A stretch of 33,158 nt of DNA from Streptosporangiaceae bacterium. GTDB taxonomy: Bacteria > Actinomycetota > Actinomycetes > Streptosporangiales > Streptosporangiaceae. The position numbers and the translations under genes are program-made. Position 1 is the stretch's first letter, and each line of letters begins with the position of its first letter. Positions 17,106-28,856 of the stretch are shown here, in pieces. The notes below the pieces were generated by a model, which had not been told where the DNA came from, did not search any database, and saw only the letters and a list, made by a program, of their open reading frames with translations. Location of the stretch: positions 1 to 33,158 of the forward strand of contig JASHPR010000172.1 in assembly GCA_030038015.1 (NCBI GenBank), given 5' to 3'.

Positions 17106-17993
17106 GTGAGCAAACCGGACAGCGAGCGCAGGATGCTGCTCGTGCACGCCCACCCCGATGACGAGTCGATCGGGACCGGGGCGACGATGGCCAAGTACGC
17201 CGCCGAGGGCGCCCACGTGACCCTGATCACCTGCACGCTCGGCGAGCTCGGCGAGGTCATCCCTGCCGAGCTCGCTCACCTGGCCGCCGACGCTGACGGG
17301 GGCCTTGGCGAGTACCGCATCGGCGAGCTCGCCGCGGCGTGCGCCGCGCTCGGGGTCACCGACCACCGCTTCCTCGGCGGCCCCGGCCGGTACCGTGACT
17401 CGGGGATGATGGGCCTGCCGGGCAACGAGGCGCCCGGCTGCTTCTGGCAGGCCGACGTCAACGTGGCCGCCGGCGAGCTGCTCGGCGTGATCCGCGAGGT
17501 CCGGCCGCAGGTCCTGGTCACCTACGACGACAACGGCTTCTACGGGCATCCTGACCACATCCAGGCGCACCGCGTGGCGTGGCGGGCCTTCGAGCTTGCC
17601 GATGGCCTGGTCAGCAAGTTCTACGCGACGGCGGTGCCGCGCTCGGTTCTCGTCGGCGCCATCGAGTCGCTGCGTAACAGGCCGGGCGGCGGCAGCTTCC
17701 CCGGCGGCGCCCCCAGCTTCGACCAGGTCGAGTCCGTCCACGACCTCCCGTTCGGAGTGCCCGATGAGGTTGTGACCACGGAGATCGACGCGACCGCCTA
17801 CCTGGAGCAGAAGCTGGCCGCGATGCGGGCGCACGCGACCCAGATCGCGGTGGAGAGCCCGTTTTTCGCGTTTTCCGACAATGTGGGCCAGCGCGCGTTC
17901 GGCCGTGAGTACTACACCCTGCTGGCCGGGCCGCGCGGGCCGGCCAGCAGGGGGGACGGCCGGGAGAACGATCTGTTCGGCGGCATTCACTAG
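17106..17993 (+). CDS. mshB: N-acetyl-glucosaminyl-inositol deacetylase (mycothiol synthesis)
   Basis: Zinc hydrolase that deacetylates GlcNAc-Ins to GlcN-Ins, the second committed step of mycothiol synthesis. AHPDDE supplies His16 and Asp19 as zinc ligands and Asp18 as catalytic base. [13 protein letters not shown] supplies the third ligand, His151. Family features [29 protein letters not shown] and YRDSGMMG separate MshB from the related Mca amidase. Length is 295 aa, as expected. GTG 17106 is chosen, with GGTAGG at 17091-17096 upstream; the longer open frame has no family similarity. A DUF6113 gene follows after 10 bases, the usual actinomycete neighbour. This gene places the organism among mycothiol producers. 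Confidence 0.94.
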
Positions 17994-24101: not shown

Positions 24102-25313
24102 TCAGCGGGCGATTTCCGCTACGCGGTCGAGCGCCCAGTCCAGGTCCTCTTCCGCGATCGTCAGCGGCGGGGCAAGCCTGATCGTGGAGCCGTGGGTGTC
24201 CTTGGTCAGGACGCCCCGCTCGGCGAGCAGCTCGCAGGCCCGCCGTCCGGGCAGCGTGGCGAACTCGAGGCCGGCCCACAGCCCGCGGCCGCGCACCTCG
24301 CGAACAGCGCTCTCCGGCAGCCCGGCCAGCCGGCCGTGCAGGTGCGCGCCGAGCTTGGCGGAGCGCTCCTGGAACTCCCCGGTCTTCAGCATCGCGATCA
24401 CCTCACGCCCGATCGCGCAGGCCAGCGGGTTGCCGCCGAACGTGGAGCCGTGCTGGCCGGGGCGGAACACGCTGAGGATCTCGCGGGAGGACACCACGGC
24501 GGACACCGGCACGATGCCGCCGCCGAGCGCCTTGCCCAGCAGGTACATGTCCGGGACGACATCCTCGTGCTCGCAGGCGAACGTGGTGCCGGTCCTGCCC
24601 AGCCCGGACTGGATCTCGTCCGCGATCATCAGCGCGCCGCGCGCGGAGCAGATCTCGCGCACGCCGGCCAGGAACCCTTGGGGCGGCACCCGCACCCCGG
24701 CCTCACCCTGGATCGGCTCGACGAGCACGCCGACCACGCGGTCGCCGACGGCGGCGGCCAGCGCGTCGAGGTCGCCATAGGGCACGACCCTGAACCCCGG
24801 GGTGTACGGCCCGAACGAGGCCCTGGAGTCCTCGTCCGTGGAGAAGCTGATGATCGTTGTGGTGCGGCCGTGGAAGTTGCCCCCGAACGCCACGATCTCC
24901 GCCTGTCCGGCGGGCACGCCCTTGACCTCGTACCCCCACTTGCGGGCGGTCTTGATCGCGGTCTCCACCGCCTCGGCGCCGGTGTTCATCGGCAGCACCA
25001 TCTGCATCCCGGCGAGCTCGGCCAGCTCGGCGCAGAACGGCCCGAACTGGTCATGCTCGAACGCCCGGCTGACCAGGGTCACCCGTTCGAGCTGCCGCCG
25101 TGCCGCCGCCACGAGCCTGGGGTGGCGGTGGCCGAAGTTGACCGCCGAGTACGCGGCCAGCAGGTCCAGGTACCGGCGGCCGTCGACGTCGGTCACCCAC
25201 GCGCCCTCGGCCTCGGCGATCACGACCGGCAGCGGGTGGTAGTTGTGCGCGCCATGCGCCGCGGCCTGCCCTTGCAGCAGCTCCGCCGCTGGCGTGTGGT
25301 CGCTGCCTGCCAT
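24102..25313 (-). CDS. rocD: Ornithine aminotransferase
   Basis: PLP enzyme of aminotransferase class III that converts ornithine and 2-oxoglutarate to glutamate-5-semialdehyde and glutamate. The 403-residue product has TGAEAVETAIK (111-121), FHGRTTTIISFS, EPIQGEAGV, ADEIQSGLGRTG with the cofactor Asp232, LLGKALGGGIVPVSA with the Schiff-base Lys261, and HGSTFGGNPLAC. Full length. ATG 25313 is preceded by AAGGAGG, the best ribosome binding site in the window. It begins 11 bases after the arginine-dihydrolase-like gene stop, so the two are an operon: the first enzyme may make the ornithine consumed here. Confidence 0.94.
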   Translation of the reverse strand: MAGSDHTPAAELLQGQAAAHGAHNYHPLPVVIAEAEGAWVTDVDGRRYLDLLAAYSAVNFGHRHPRLVAAARRQLERVTLVSRAFEHDQFGPFCAELAELAGMQMVLPMNTGAEAVETAIKTARKWGYEVKGVPAGQAEIVAFGGNFHGRTTTIISFSTDEDSRASFGPYTPGFRVVPYGDLDALAAAVGDRVVGVLVEPIQGEAGVRVPPQGFLAGVREICSARGALMIADEIQSGLGRTGTTFACEHEDVVPDMYLLGKALGGGIVPVSAVVSSREILSVFRPGQHGSTFGGNPLACAIGREVIAMLKTGEFQERSAKLGAHLHGRLAGLPESAVREVRGRGLWAGLEFATLPGRRACELLAERGVLTKDTHGSTIRLAPPLTIAEEDLDWALDRVAEIAR

Positions 25314-25324
25314 GTTCGCCTCCT

Positions 25325-26185
25325 TCAGGGTGCCGGCGCGAGAGCGCTCTGCCGCGTCTCCCGGATCTCCAGCGTGCAGCACTTGGGTCCGCCCCCGGAT
25401 TTGCGGAATTCTGACACGTCAACCGGCACGGGCTCGAATCCGTTATCCGCGAGCTGGGCCGCGAGGCCCGCCGCCTGCGCTGGCAGCACCACGTGCCTGC
25501 CGTCGCTGACCGCGTTCAGGCCCAGCACCTCGGCGTCCTCGTCCTTCGCCTCGATCAGGGTCGGGAAAAGGCTGGCCAGCGCCGCACGGCTGGCGTCGTC
25601 GAACGCGCCGGGATAGCAGGCCACGGTTCCCGCGCCCAGGACGCACAGCGCGGTGTCGAGATGGTAGAACCGCGGGTCCACCAGCCGCAGGCTGACCACC
25701 GGCAGGCCGAAGAGCGCCTCGAGCTCCCTGCTGACCGCCGGGTCGGTGCGGTAGCCATGGCCGGCCAGGATCACCCGCCCGGCGAAGACGATGTCGCCCT
25801 CGCCTTCATTGACGCTGCTCGGCGCGACGGCGGGGTAGCCGTTCCGGGCAAACCAGGACAGGTAGGCGTCGCCCTCCGCGGCCCGCTGCGGGTGCCGGAA
25901 CCGCGCGCCGAGCACCCTTCCGCCGATGACGGTGGCGCCGTTCGCCGCGAAGACCATGTCCGGGAGGCCGGGCACCGGGTCGATGGTGCGCACGGTATGG
26001 CCGAGGCGCGTGAACGTGTCCCGCAGCTGCCGCCATTGGCGTGCCGCCAGGACGGTATCGATGGGTTCGCCCGGGTTCATCCATGGATTGATCGCGTATT
26101 CGACCGCGAAGTAGTCGGGCGGGCACATCAGGTACGTTCGGCTCTGCCCGGCGCGGTGGCGCCCGGTGCCATCCGTCTGGGTCAT
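25325..26185 (-). CDS. Guanidino-group modifying enzyme, arginine dihydrolase (ArgZ/AgrE)-like; alternatively dimethylargininase
   Basis: Penta-beta/alpha propeller enzyme acting on the guanidinium of arginine. The 286 residues begin TYLMCPPDYFAVEYAINPWM. They carry PDMVFAANGA (Asn82), EGEGDIVFAGR, FYHLDTALCVL (His175) and GGGPKCCTLEI (likely nucleophile Cys269). The opening and the Asn in the substrate loop are the pattern I recall for cyanobacterial arginine dihydrolases, which convert arginine to ornithine, CO2 and two ammonia; arginine deiminases and true DDAHs have Asp there. Databases often label such proteins dimethylargininase. ATG 26185 follows GGGAGA. Coupling to rocD favours an ornithine-forming activity. 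11-bp-phased repeats lie upstream. Confidence 0.8.
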   Translation of the reverse strand: MTQTDGTGRHRAGQSRTYLMCPPDYFAVEYAINPWMNPGEPIDTVLAARQWRQLRDTFTRLGHTVRTIDPVPGLPDMVFAANGATVIGGRVLGARFRHPQRAAEGDAYLSWFARNGYPAVAPSSVNEGEGDIVFAGRVILAGHGYRTDPAVSRELEALFGLPVVSLRLVDPRFYHLDTALCVLGAGTVACYPGAFDDASRAALASLFPTLIEAKDEDAEVLGLNAVSDGRHVVLPAQAAGLAAQLADNGFEPVPVDVSEFRKSGGGPKCCTLEIRETRQSALAPAP

Positions 26186-26319: not shown

Positions 26320-27138
26320 CTATTGCGCGGGCCGGGGCTGCGGCCCGGGCCCGCACCGTGGCCGGCCGATGTCACGGGGCAGGTCCAGCCCGAGCAGCTG
26401 GTCGGCGTGCAGGAACGACTCGAACTTCGACCCGGGCGGGATCCCGGGGTCCAGCGCGAGCTGCTTCAGCGCCCGCAGCGCCGCCGGGGTGTCCAGGTCG
26501 TCATCGAATGCGGCGCCGACTCGCGTGGCCGTCTCCGCGTCCATCGGCTTGCTCGGCGACTCGGCCCACTCGGCCACCAGCTCCCGCCACCGGCGCAGGG
26601 CCTTGTCCGCGCCGGCCAGGGCGGCCCAGGTGAGGTCCACCCGCTGGGCGTGGCGGCGGGACAGGTACGCCAGCCGCAGCGCGAGCGGGTCGAGGCCGCG
26701 GCCGGCCAGGTCCGGGAGGCGCACCTCCGGCGCCGGGTGCTGCGCGGAGCCGGTCATCTCGCGGCCGTCGAACGTCACCTGCCCGGCACGCACCGAGTGC
26801 CTGACGCCCTCGCGCCCGCTCGCGTCGACGATGACCTCCCCAGGGGTGATCGCACCGGCGTCCGGGCCGGCCCACTCCGGGGGGCCGGACGTCTGCTCGG
26901 CGGGCCTGAGGTTCAGCGCCATGGCGTCGGCCGGGAACCCCTCCCCGGCGACGACCAGGCAGGCCAGGACCGCCAGGCCGTGCCGGTGCTCCGCGTTCCG
27001 GCGGATCAGGTCGGCGAGCAGCAGCCAGCGCAGGTCACCGACGTGCGCGGCGGGGCCGTGCGCGTAGATGCGCAGCAGCCTGCCCGGCCCCGGATTGATC
27101 TCCTCGGCCCGCCCGGTGCGCGTGTTGTAGAGCCACAC
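26320..27138 (-). CDS. Cysteinyl-tRNA synthetase/MshC-like protein with degenerate catalytic motifs
   Basis: A 272-residue protein that aligns by eye to CysRS ends but lacks the middle. The N-terminus (WLYNTRTGRAEE ... RIYAHGPAAHVGDLRWLLLADLIRR) corresponds to the first Rossmann strand. The zinc Cys of YxCGPT is His27, and HIGH reads HVGD (32-35). The KMSKS loop appears as FDGREMTGS (123-131). Then GLDPLALRLAYLS and LDLTWAALAGADKALRRWREL match the post-catalytic helices, followed by FDDDLDTPAALRAL. Real CysRS is about 460 aa and MshC about 410, so some 130-190 residues are missing. Catalysis therefore looks unlikely; a tRNA-, cysteine- or partner-binding role is possible. It starts at GTG 27138, 22 bases after the small coiled-coil gene. 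I recall similar short proteins in other actinomycetes. Confidence 0.7.
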   Translation of the reverse strand: MWLYNTRTGRAEEINPGPGRLLRIYAHGPAAHVGDLRWLLLADLIRRNAEHRHGLAVLACLVVAGEGFPADAMALNLRPAEQTSGPPEWAGPDAGAITPGEVIVDASGREGVRHSVRAGQVTFDGREMTGSAQHPAPEVRLPDLAGRGLDPLALRLAYLSRRHAQRVDLTWAALAGADKALRRWRELVAEWAESPSKPMDAETATRVGAAFDDDLDTPAALRALKQLALDPGIPPGSKFESFLHADQLLGLDLPRDIGRPRCGPGPQPRPAQ

Positions 27139-27160: not shown

Positions 27161-27409
27161 CTACTCGACTTGCTTGAGGATGTGCTGCAGCTGCTCCATC
27201 TGGCCGCGGAGCTCGTCGATCCGCACGCTGAGTTCGGTGAGCCGCAGGCCGGTGTGCTCCTGGGCGGCCATGTCGCTGAGCCTGCGGTACTCGTCAGCCA
27301 GGCCGCGGTACTGCTCGTCACTGGCGAGCGCCGCGCGGGCCTGGCGCGAGGTGCCAGGGTACCGGGTTACGGTGAACCTGCCCGCCGCGATCGCGAACCG
27401 GCCGCTCAG
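27161..27409 (-). CDS. Small coiled-coil protein with probable CTG start
   Basis: An 82-residue frame between dapC and the CysRS-like gene. It reads SGRFAIAAGRFTVTRYPGTS, then DEQYRGLADEYRRLSDMA and a C-terminal heptad-like helix LTELSVRIDELRGQMEQLQH ending ILKQVE. The sequence looks protein-like right up to the dapC stop, but no ATG, GTG or TTG exists between that stop and an internal ATG that would remove half the protein. A CTG at 27409-27407 overlaps the dapC TGA as CTGA, imitating the ATGA/GTGA couplings seen elsewhere in the window, and is proposed as the start. The alternative is a start far inside dapC (ATG 27586), giving a basic, unconserved extension. Function unknown. Confidence 0.5.
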   Translation of the reverse strand: MSGRFAIAAGRFTVTRYPGTSRQARAALASDEQYRGLADEYRRLSDMAAQEHTGLRLTELSVRIDELRGQMEQLQHILKQVE

Positions 27410-28509
27410 CAGAGCGTCCGCAGGCGCTCGGCCGCGGCGGCGATCCGCTCCTCGGTGGCGGTCAGCGCCACCCGGATGTGGCGGGTGCCCGATGGCCCGT
27501 AGACCGAGCCCGGGGCGACCAGGATGCCTGCCTCGGCGAGCATGGCGACCGACTCCCAGCAGTCCCGGCGGGGATGGGCCGCCCACAGGTACAGGCCGGC
27601 CTGCGAGTGCTGAACCGCCCAGCCGGCCGCCTCCAGGGCGGGGCGGAGCACGCCGCGCCGGGCCGCGTACCTGGCCCGCTGCGCGCCGGCGTGGTCATCG
27701 TCGCCGAGCGCGGCGGTGGCGGCCGCCTGCACCGGCGCCGGGACGATCATGCCGGCGTGCTTGCGGATCTCCAGCAGCTCGGCGACCAGCCGCGGGTCGC
27801 CGGTCACGAAGCCGAACCGGTAGCCGGCCATGTTGGACCGCTTGGACAGCGAGTGCACGGCCAGCAGGCCCTCGTGCGACCCGCCGCACACGTCGGGGTG
27901 GAGCACCGAGACGGGGCGTCCCTCCCAGGCGAGCTCGATGTAGCACTCATCCGAGGCGATCAGCGCGCCGCGCTCGCGTGCCCACGCCACGGACTTGCGC
28001 AGGTGCGCGGCGGGCAGCACCTGGCCGGTCGGGTTGGACGGCGAGTTCAGCCAGAGCAGCCGCACCGGCCCGGGACCCAGCGAGGCGAGCCCGTCGGCCG
28101 CCACCGGCCTGGCCCCGGCCATGCGCGCGCCCACGTCGTAGGTCGGGTAGGCAAGCTCTGGGTGAACCACGACGTCACCCGGGCCGAGGCCGAGCAGCGT
28201 CGGCAGGCCGGCAACCAGTTCCTTGGTGCCGATGACGGGGAGAACGGCGTCGGGATCGACGGTGACCTCATGCCGGCGCGCCAGCCATCCGGCTGCCGCC
28301 CGGCGCAGCGCGCGGGTGCCGGCGGTTGCCGGGTAACCCGGAGAATCCGAGGCAGCAGCCAGCGCCTCGCGCACTACGTCGGGGACAGGATCCACCGGCG
28401 TGCCAACCGACAGGTCGACGATGCCGCCCGGATGGGCGAGCGCCTTCACCCTGTAGGGCTCGAGCGCATCCCAGGGGAAACGGGGCAGTCGCGCGGCGAG
28501 AGTCGGCAC
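27406..28509 (-). CDS. dapC: Succinyldiaminopimelate transaminase
   Basis: PLP aminotransferase (class I/II) of the succinylase branch of lysine/diaminopimelate synthesis: N-succinyl-2-amino-6-ketopimelate plus glutamate gives N-succinyl-LL-diaminopimelate. The 367 residues have LSVGTPVDPVPD, SPGYPATAGTRALRRA, PVIGTKELVAGLP, WLNSPSNPTG, SDECYIELAWEG and SLSKRSNMAGYRFGFVTGD with Schiff-base Lys223. This wording is the actinobacterial DapC type. GTG 28509 lies 26 bases after the ferredoxin stop, reproducing the fdx-dapC pair of mycobacteria and Streptomyces. dapD and dapE, often nearby, are not in the window. Confidence 0.93.
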   Translation of the reverse strand: MPTLAARLPRFPWDALEPYRVKALAHPGGIVDLSVGTPVDPVPDVVREALAAASDSPGYPATAGTRALRRAAAGWLARRHEVTVDPDAVLPVIGTKELVAGLPTLLGLGPGDVVVHPELAYPTYDVGARMAGARPVAADGLASLGPGPVRLLWLNSPSNPTGQVLPAAHLRKSVAWARERGALIASDECYIELAWEGRPVSVLHPDVCGGSHEGLLAVHSLSKRSNMAGYRFGFVTGDPRLVAELLEIRKHAGMIVPAPVQAAATAALGDDDHAGAQRARYAARRGVLRPALEAAGWAVQHSQAGLYLWAAHPRRDCWESVAMLAEAGILVAPGSVYGPSGTRHIRVALTATEERIAAAAERLRTLC

Positions 28510-28535: not shown

Positions 28536-28856
28536 TCAGTGCGGCTGCGGTGGCAGCGCCGCCACCAGCGGGTGATCCTTGTGGATCTTGCCTACCTTGG
28601 ACGCGCCGCCCGGCGAGCCGATGTCTTCGAAGAAGTCGACGTTGACCCGGTAGTAGTCCTTCCACTGGGCGGGCACGTCGTCCTCGTAATAAATAGCCTC
28701 AACCGGGCAGACCGGTTCACAGGCACCGCAGTCCACGCATTCGTCCGGGTGGATGTAGAGCATGCGCTCGCCCTCGTAGATGCAATCCACCGGGCATTCC
28801 TCGATGCATGTCTTGTCCAGCAGGTCGACGCAGGACTGGGTGATGATGTACGTCAC
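28536..28856 (-). CDS. fdxA: 7Fe ferredoxin ([3Fe-4S][4Fe-4S])
   Basis: Small soluble electron carrier, 106 residues. TYIITQSCVDLLDKTCIEEC provides Cys9 and Cys17 for the [3Fe-4S] cluster together with Cys50. Cys21, Cys40, Cys43 and Cys46 (CVDCGAC) bind the [4Fe-4S] cluster; Cys25 is probably free. The C-terminal segment WKDYYRVNVDFFEDIGSPGG is typical of actinobacterial FdxA/FdxC. GTG 28856 is preceded by AAGGAG eight bases upstream, a strong site. It stands directly upstream of dapC, as in many actinobacteria. The electron partner is not identified here. Confidence 0.95.
   Translation of the reverse strand: MTYIITQSCVDLLDKTCIEECPVDCIYEGERMLYIHPDECVDCGACEPVCPVEAIYYEDDVPAQWKDYYRVNVDFFEDIGSPGGASKVGKIHKDHPLVAALPPQPH

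Follow-up and report, generated by a model that had tools for sequence, protein, structure and literature searches.

A core-less third cysteinyl-tRNA synthetase-type paralogue conserved among actinomycetes and possibly retained as a non-catalytic protein

Some catalytically dead paralogues of synthetases are already known to have regulatory roles. HisZ, an inactive paralogue of histidyl-tRNA synthetase (HisRS), regulates HisG (PMC9734150, PMC10795190), and the CysRS* of Desulfobacterales is a second cysteinyl-tRNA synthetase (CysRS)-type paralogue that lacks the anticodon domain and is catalytically active on SelC* (PMC9437257). On truncated or duplicated CysRS in the bacteria studied here, we found nothing relevant in the open-access literature, most subscription journals being outside the scope of the search. 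The protein described below is encoded in a 33,158-nucleotide stretch of DNA (positions 1 to 33,158 of contig JASHPR010000172.1, from a Streptosporangiaceae bacterium), hereafter the window.

The gene is a 272-codon open reading frame (ORF) on the minus strand (26320–27138), and its GTG codon is the only possible start since a stop codon lies three codons upstream. At the GC content of the window a long stop-free frame means little by itself, and the case for a real gene therefore rests on relatives and on codon evidence. GC content at the three codon positions is 0.79/0.54/0.96, resembling that of the neighboring dapC (0.78/0.56/0.90), and the plus-strand ORFs overlapping the gene lack this pattern. 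Together with homology searches, motif alignment and structure prediction, this confirms 26320–27138 (minus) as a real gene encoding a CysRS-family protein. A first-pass annotation made from the sequence alone had reported a clean ORF without internal stops, and both its coordinates and its strand were correct.

NCBIfam searches with the window protein returned PRK14536 (CysRS, E = 1.6e-11) and MshC, the mycothiol cysteine ligase (E = 4.2e-11), both far under the equivalog cut-offs: 22.6 bits against TIGR00435 (CysRS, cut-off 340) and 42 bits against TIGR03447 (MshC, cut-off 485). No Pfam family was matched, tRNA-synt_1e included, and the PDB match was MshC (E = 3e-8). HMM search and fold match thus agree with the membership in the CysRS/MshC family that the first-pass annotation had proposed, all scores lying below equivalog cut-offs. 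Within that family, the window protein belongs to neither the housekeeping CysRS nor MshC but to a third CysRS-type paralogue. It shares 48–50% identity with intact paralogue members over about 266 residues (48% over 267 aligned residues with G011) and is closer by far to them than to the MshC of relatives. At 387 and 365 bits, intact orthologues exceed the TIGR00435 cut-off of 340, and they form their own clade in the tree, apart from housekeeping CysRS and MshC, and the genome of the window also has a CysRS (contig C582) and an MshC (contig C4, 519 bits). Searches with the short forms found no curated family that covers them. The single annotated relative encountered is a "hypothetical protein", a Streptomyces plasmid carries a 38% identical match, and a single-sequence scan of the genome contigs gave no match. 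The genome of the window encodes two further, near-identical CysRS/MshC-like proteins of ~405 aa (G000:C475:1097-2113, locus L162; G000:C83:64-1080, locus L163), which score 286–293 bits to MshC (cut-off 485) and sit on a separate long branch beside it; extra copies resembling them seem to occur in genomes G011, G029 and G032.

Alignment with intact relatives shows which parts of the enzyme are left (all positions below are on the minus strand). By alignment and secondary structure, residues 1–64 (26947–27138) retain the first Rossmann strand, the helix after the HIGH site and the second strand. The zinc site reads YAHGP where YTCGP is expected, with His27 (27058–27060) where the first zinc-binding Cys should be, and the segments with the other three ligands (Cys, His and Glu) are deleted. 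HVGD stands at the HIGH-motif site (27034–27045), where intact paralogue members have HVGN, and EMTGS (26746–26760) is the remnant of the KMSKS loop, aligned with KMAKS; neither provides the HIGH and KMSKS required of an active CysRS. Relative to intact G011, G035 and G024, 35 residues are missing at a first deletion junction after residue 65 (26942–26945). At the main junction, after residue 105 (26822–26825), 102 residues are missing, among them the WHxECS and HTGGxDLRFPHHE zinc/active-site segments. Core deletions relative to G011 amount to 35 + 12 + 102 residues, about 150 in all, within the 130–190 estimated in the first-pass annotation, and each of the three motif changes it listed (His for the zinc Cys, HVGD and EMTGS) was seen in the alignment. 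To these we add the C-terminal anticodon domain (CysS_C), which is present in an intact orthologue and of which 47–51 residues are absent relative to intact relatives (47 vs G011). By alignment and model, residues 148–258 (26365–26697) form a conserved helical domain (GLDPLALRLA ... DDDLDTP ... GSKFESF ... LGLDL..IG) that every form, long or short, retains as its invariant core. The outer frame of the enzyme, namely the Rossmann segment and these post-KMSKS helices, is alignable with CysRS-type relatives, as first proposed.

A structural model predicted from intact plus short relatives had a pLDDT of 89.6 and a pTM of 0.87. Its best Foldseek match was MshC 8hfm (E = 5e-10, TM-score 0.71 over the query), and it also matched CysRS, including tRNA-bound CysRS 1u0b. 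An alignment of short forms alone gave a mean pLDDT of 59.9, with 10-residue means mostly between 75 and 90 in the helical domain and low values in the N-terminal half. The predicted N-terminal fold would thus derive largely from the intact relatives, and the helical domain appears to be predicted fairly well even without them.

Relatives were sought in 60 related genomes, then in 343 genomes of the family plus 65 of one genus, and in a class-wide sample of 118. All of the 60 related genomes have at least one strong CysRS-domain match, and besides MshC they hold two types of relative: full-length proteins (~460 aa) in which every CysRS motif is present, and short proteins like that of the window. 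The copies form a series from intact (~460 aa) through full-length with broken motifs and 350–430 aa with a decayed core to short forms of 211–298 aa. Scoring 12 diagnostic residues in each row of a 77-row tree placed 23 rows as intact (11–12) and the remainder at 0–8, so that the series spans 12/12 to 0/12. Alignment of the altered residues, a check proposed in the first-pass annotation, showed motif losses common to many short forms and replacements that vary between lineages. The intact state was lost seven times on the best tree (5–10 in bootstraps). A single clade of all core-lost copies, and with it one origin of the short form, was rejected (p-AU = 0.0003), and the core has been lost at least five separate times. 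Because 19 short rows, including that of the window, gather on long branches, the tree position of the window protein and the exact count of losses are unsure.

Both states occur within single genera: Planobispora longispora carries the short form and P. siamensis and P. takensis the intact one, and Nonomuraea likewise holds both. In one genus (g37), 64/65 species have the short form without internal stops; in another (g56, genomes mostly 7–11 Mb), matches were found in 27/61 species, nearly all of them short. Class-wide, 38 of the 118 genomes have a match and 80 have none. Eleven genomes, most with core-lost copies, were checked with the cysS model, and each has its housekeeping CysRS together with an MshC-like match. 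The first-pass annotation had named two outcomes that would count against it, the lack of conserved homologues and a simple recent deletion from an intact gene. The former failed, as short homologues occur in many genera, which also rules out a recent deletion private to the genome of the window. As to the latter, intact homologues do exist, and the short forms arose from such proteins by repeated loss, but the deletion is neither recent nor single.

The short forms are under strong purifying selection. Single-ratio codon models, applied to relatives (the genus of the window itself being unrepresented) and with the deeper sets partly saturated, gave omega values of 0.111 (g73, Microtetraspora), 0.160 (g34, Herbidospora), 0.141 (g37, 30 species), 0.142 (g56, 24 species) and 0.244 (four Planobispora/Planomonospora). 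The dN/dS comparison suggested in the first-pass annotation therefore points to purifying selection, at 0.11–0.24 in the short-form clades, and against omega = 1 the short-form sets gave 2dLL of 92 to 1583. In three sets, control frames (+1, +2 and anti0) had omega values of 1.0–7.4, and the antisense frame whose third positions coincide with those of the sense frame had 0.15–0.31, above the sense value in each set. By region, omega in the short forms is 0.08–0.15 for the helical domain and 0.15–0.31 for the N-terminal half. Since constraint is relaxed relative to the intact enzyme (0.056), and more so in the N-terminal half, partial decay is under way. The helical domain carries a net charge of -3.2 in intact forms and of -6.6 in short forms, which have also lost Q316 and N318 of the YRxQxN motif of CysRS.

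Upstream of the gene lies a dapC-like aminotransferase gene (27406–28509, minus), identified from the ORF list and neighborhood comparison, as was the fdxA-type ferredoxin gene (28536–28856, minus) that forms with it a conserved fdxA-dapC neighborhood. The position after dapC noted in the first pass is indeed operon-like, dapC being on the same strand, but dapC ends 268 bp upstream of the pseudo-CysRS gene and coupling is not tight. In Streptosporangiaceae the paralogue is located between mshB and fdxA-dapC, with many intact and short loci keeping one or both flanks; the window has the same placement, the other flank being an mshB-like PIG-L deacetylase gene recognized by neighborhood comparison (17133–17993, plus). 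The link to dapC is a local one; neighbors differ in other lineages, and no gene is a constant partner. Of six g56 loci read, five have a 4-bp overlap between the short form and a SixA-like gene, a mark of a translated gene.

Some local candidates for a partner were set aside. Upstream of the paralogue and in the same orientation, often only 10–50 bp away, is a gene for a Sigma70_r4-domain protein of ~615 aa (L121–L123, L127–L131, L136–L139); a UvrD-type helicase lies nearby, as does another copy from the family of the ~615 aa protein. The Sigma70_r4-type gene adjoins the paralogue in many Streptosporangiaceae but neither in the window nor in other families, and is not an obligate partner. A tRNA gene was rejected as local partner, with none in or near the window or 32 related loci. 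Between dapC and the pseudo-CysRS gene, an open frame at 27161–27400 (minus) ends in a coiled-coil-like stretch (SDEQYRGLADEYRRLSDMAAQEHTGLRLTELSVRIDELRGQMEQLQHILKQVE); as a conserved small ORF it was discarded, with no match among the related loci compared. Apart from these candidates, the SixA-like histidine phosphatase gene of g56 (L140, L253–L256) is followed by one for a conserved 208 aa protein and then by SbcD/SbcC-like genes. A rocD and a dimethylargininase-like gene adjoin the short form in the window (24102–26185, minus) and in family f15 (L257, L259). Streamlined actinomycete genomes of 1.2–1.4 Mb (G384, G430, G448 (f25); L260) keep the intact paralogue beside CysRS and MshC, which suggests a separate task for the intact enzyme.

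On balance we lean slightly towards the view that these proteins form an unnamed, widespread actinomycete family, in which a class I synthetase paralogue has lost its core in parallel many times and the helical domain has kept a conserved non-translational function, one already present in the intact enzyme and persisting even in 1.2–1.4 Mb genomes as a third CysRS-type gene. For the window protein itself, the reading that we prefer, at about even chances, is a catalytically dead remnant of this paralogue that now serves as a non-catalytic binding partner, most likely of a protein. The ancestor would have been a full CysRS-like enzyme with a second role, residing in the post-KMSKS helical domain and the first Rossmann strands together. 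Since CysRS and MshC persist, this copy would not have been needed to activate cysteine, and its active site, zinc site and anticodon domain would then have been taken apart several times over in independent events, the binding role meanwhile holding the helical domain under purifying selection. By analogy with HisZ, the present-day protein may be a scaffold, allosteric subunit or stabilizer of another protein. Every catalytic element is lost and the helical domain is preserved, which argues for binding rather than catalysis and for a short form that is probably inactive. Since the loss recurred from different intact ancestors, the binding role would predate it and was probably already in place in the intact ancestor. 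Many actinomycetes lack the paralogue, so the role would be dispensable in places. The interpretation given in the first-pass annotation is supported in part. Its general idea, a CysRS-like pseudoenzyme whose role is non-catalytic, is well supported by conserved homologues, shared motif losses and purifying selection; the specific roles it put forward, namely sensing of cysteine or tRNA and chaperoning of CysRS or MshC, would be candidates.

The ligand might instead be RNA, with the remnant using its helical bundle to bind tRNA-Cys, or tRNAs at their inner corner, as a chaperone, sponge or sensor. Known structures of CysRS show the helical and stem-contact domains resting against tRNA, the model matches tRNA-bound CysRS, and an arginine-rich helix (RRWRxxVAxWAESPS) is kept in most forms. 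The anticodon-binding domain is gone in nearly all short forms, however, and the helical domain has become more acidic; both speak mildly against recognition of tRNA-Cys and favor, with modest confidence, a protein partner, and no tRNA gene accompanies the loci read. We consider tRNA binding possible but rather doubtful. If a protein is bound, it could be MshC or the housekeeping CysRS, with the remnant as a dedicated chaperone or allosteric subunit in a heterodimer of related folds, as the first-pass annotation had suggested. MshC is the nearest fold, mshB belongs to the ancestral neighborhood, and CysRS and MshC accompany the paralogue wherever checked; yet the loci read show no genetic link to mshC or cysS and many MshC producers lack the paralogue, making this proposal unlikely.

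The graded series with its many intermediates, the relaxed omega, the patchy presence and the ease with which frames stay open by chance at high GC would also suit slow pseudogene decay, in which a redundant paralogue is being lost and the short forms are intermediates. This is largely refuted by the selection test, as omega is low across whole short-form clades; moreover, nearly all species of g37 retain the short form, the same ~110 residues survive independent core losses, and the 4-bp overlaps in g56 are with neighboring genes. We rate decay as quite improbable. Part of the Rossmann fold remains and so-called pseudoenzymes sometimes prove active, so a rearranged active site could still catalyze some reaction, but with the ATP-binding HIGH and KMSKS motifs, the zinc ligands and the catalytic insertion all gone, and with replacements that vary by lineage, this is very improbable indeed. 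Under the preferred reading of a non-catalytic binding protein, the dead synthetase series, running from intact through broken motifs to core-less, alive in relatives and arisen independently several times, is a natural experiment that points to the part of the protein carrying the second function, and Planobispora and Nonomuraea allow direct comparison of the two states.

Compared with the closest known systems, the window protein shares the fold of CysRS (TIGR00435, PF01406), with N-terminal strands and a helical domain that can be aligned, but it lacks the zinc ligands, HIGH, KMSKS, the catalytic insertion and the anticodon domain and falls below every cut-off. MshC (TIGR03447) is the best Foldseek match and also has no anticodon domain, but a separate MshC gene is present in the genome and the intact orthologues of the paralogue form a clade of their own. 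Like the CysRS* of Desulfobacterales, the window protein is a CysRS-type paralogue without an anticodon domain; CysRS* is active on SelC*, whereas the active site of the window protein is gone. HisZ, a dead synthetase paralogue retained as a non-catalytic protein, offers a possible working model, although HisZ has a class II fold and a known partner, and the window protein is of class I with the core itself deleted.
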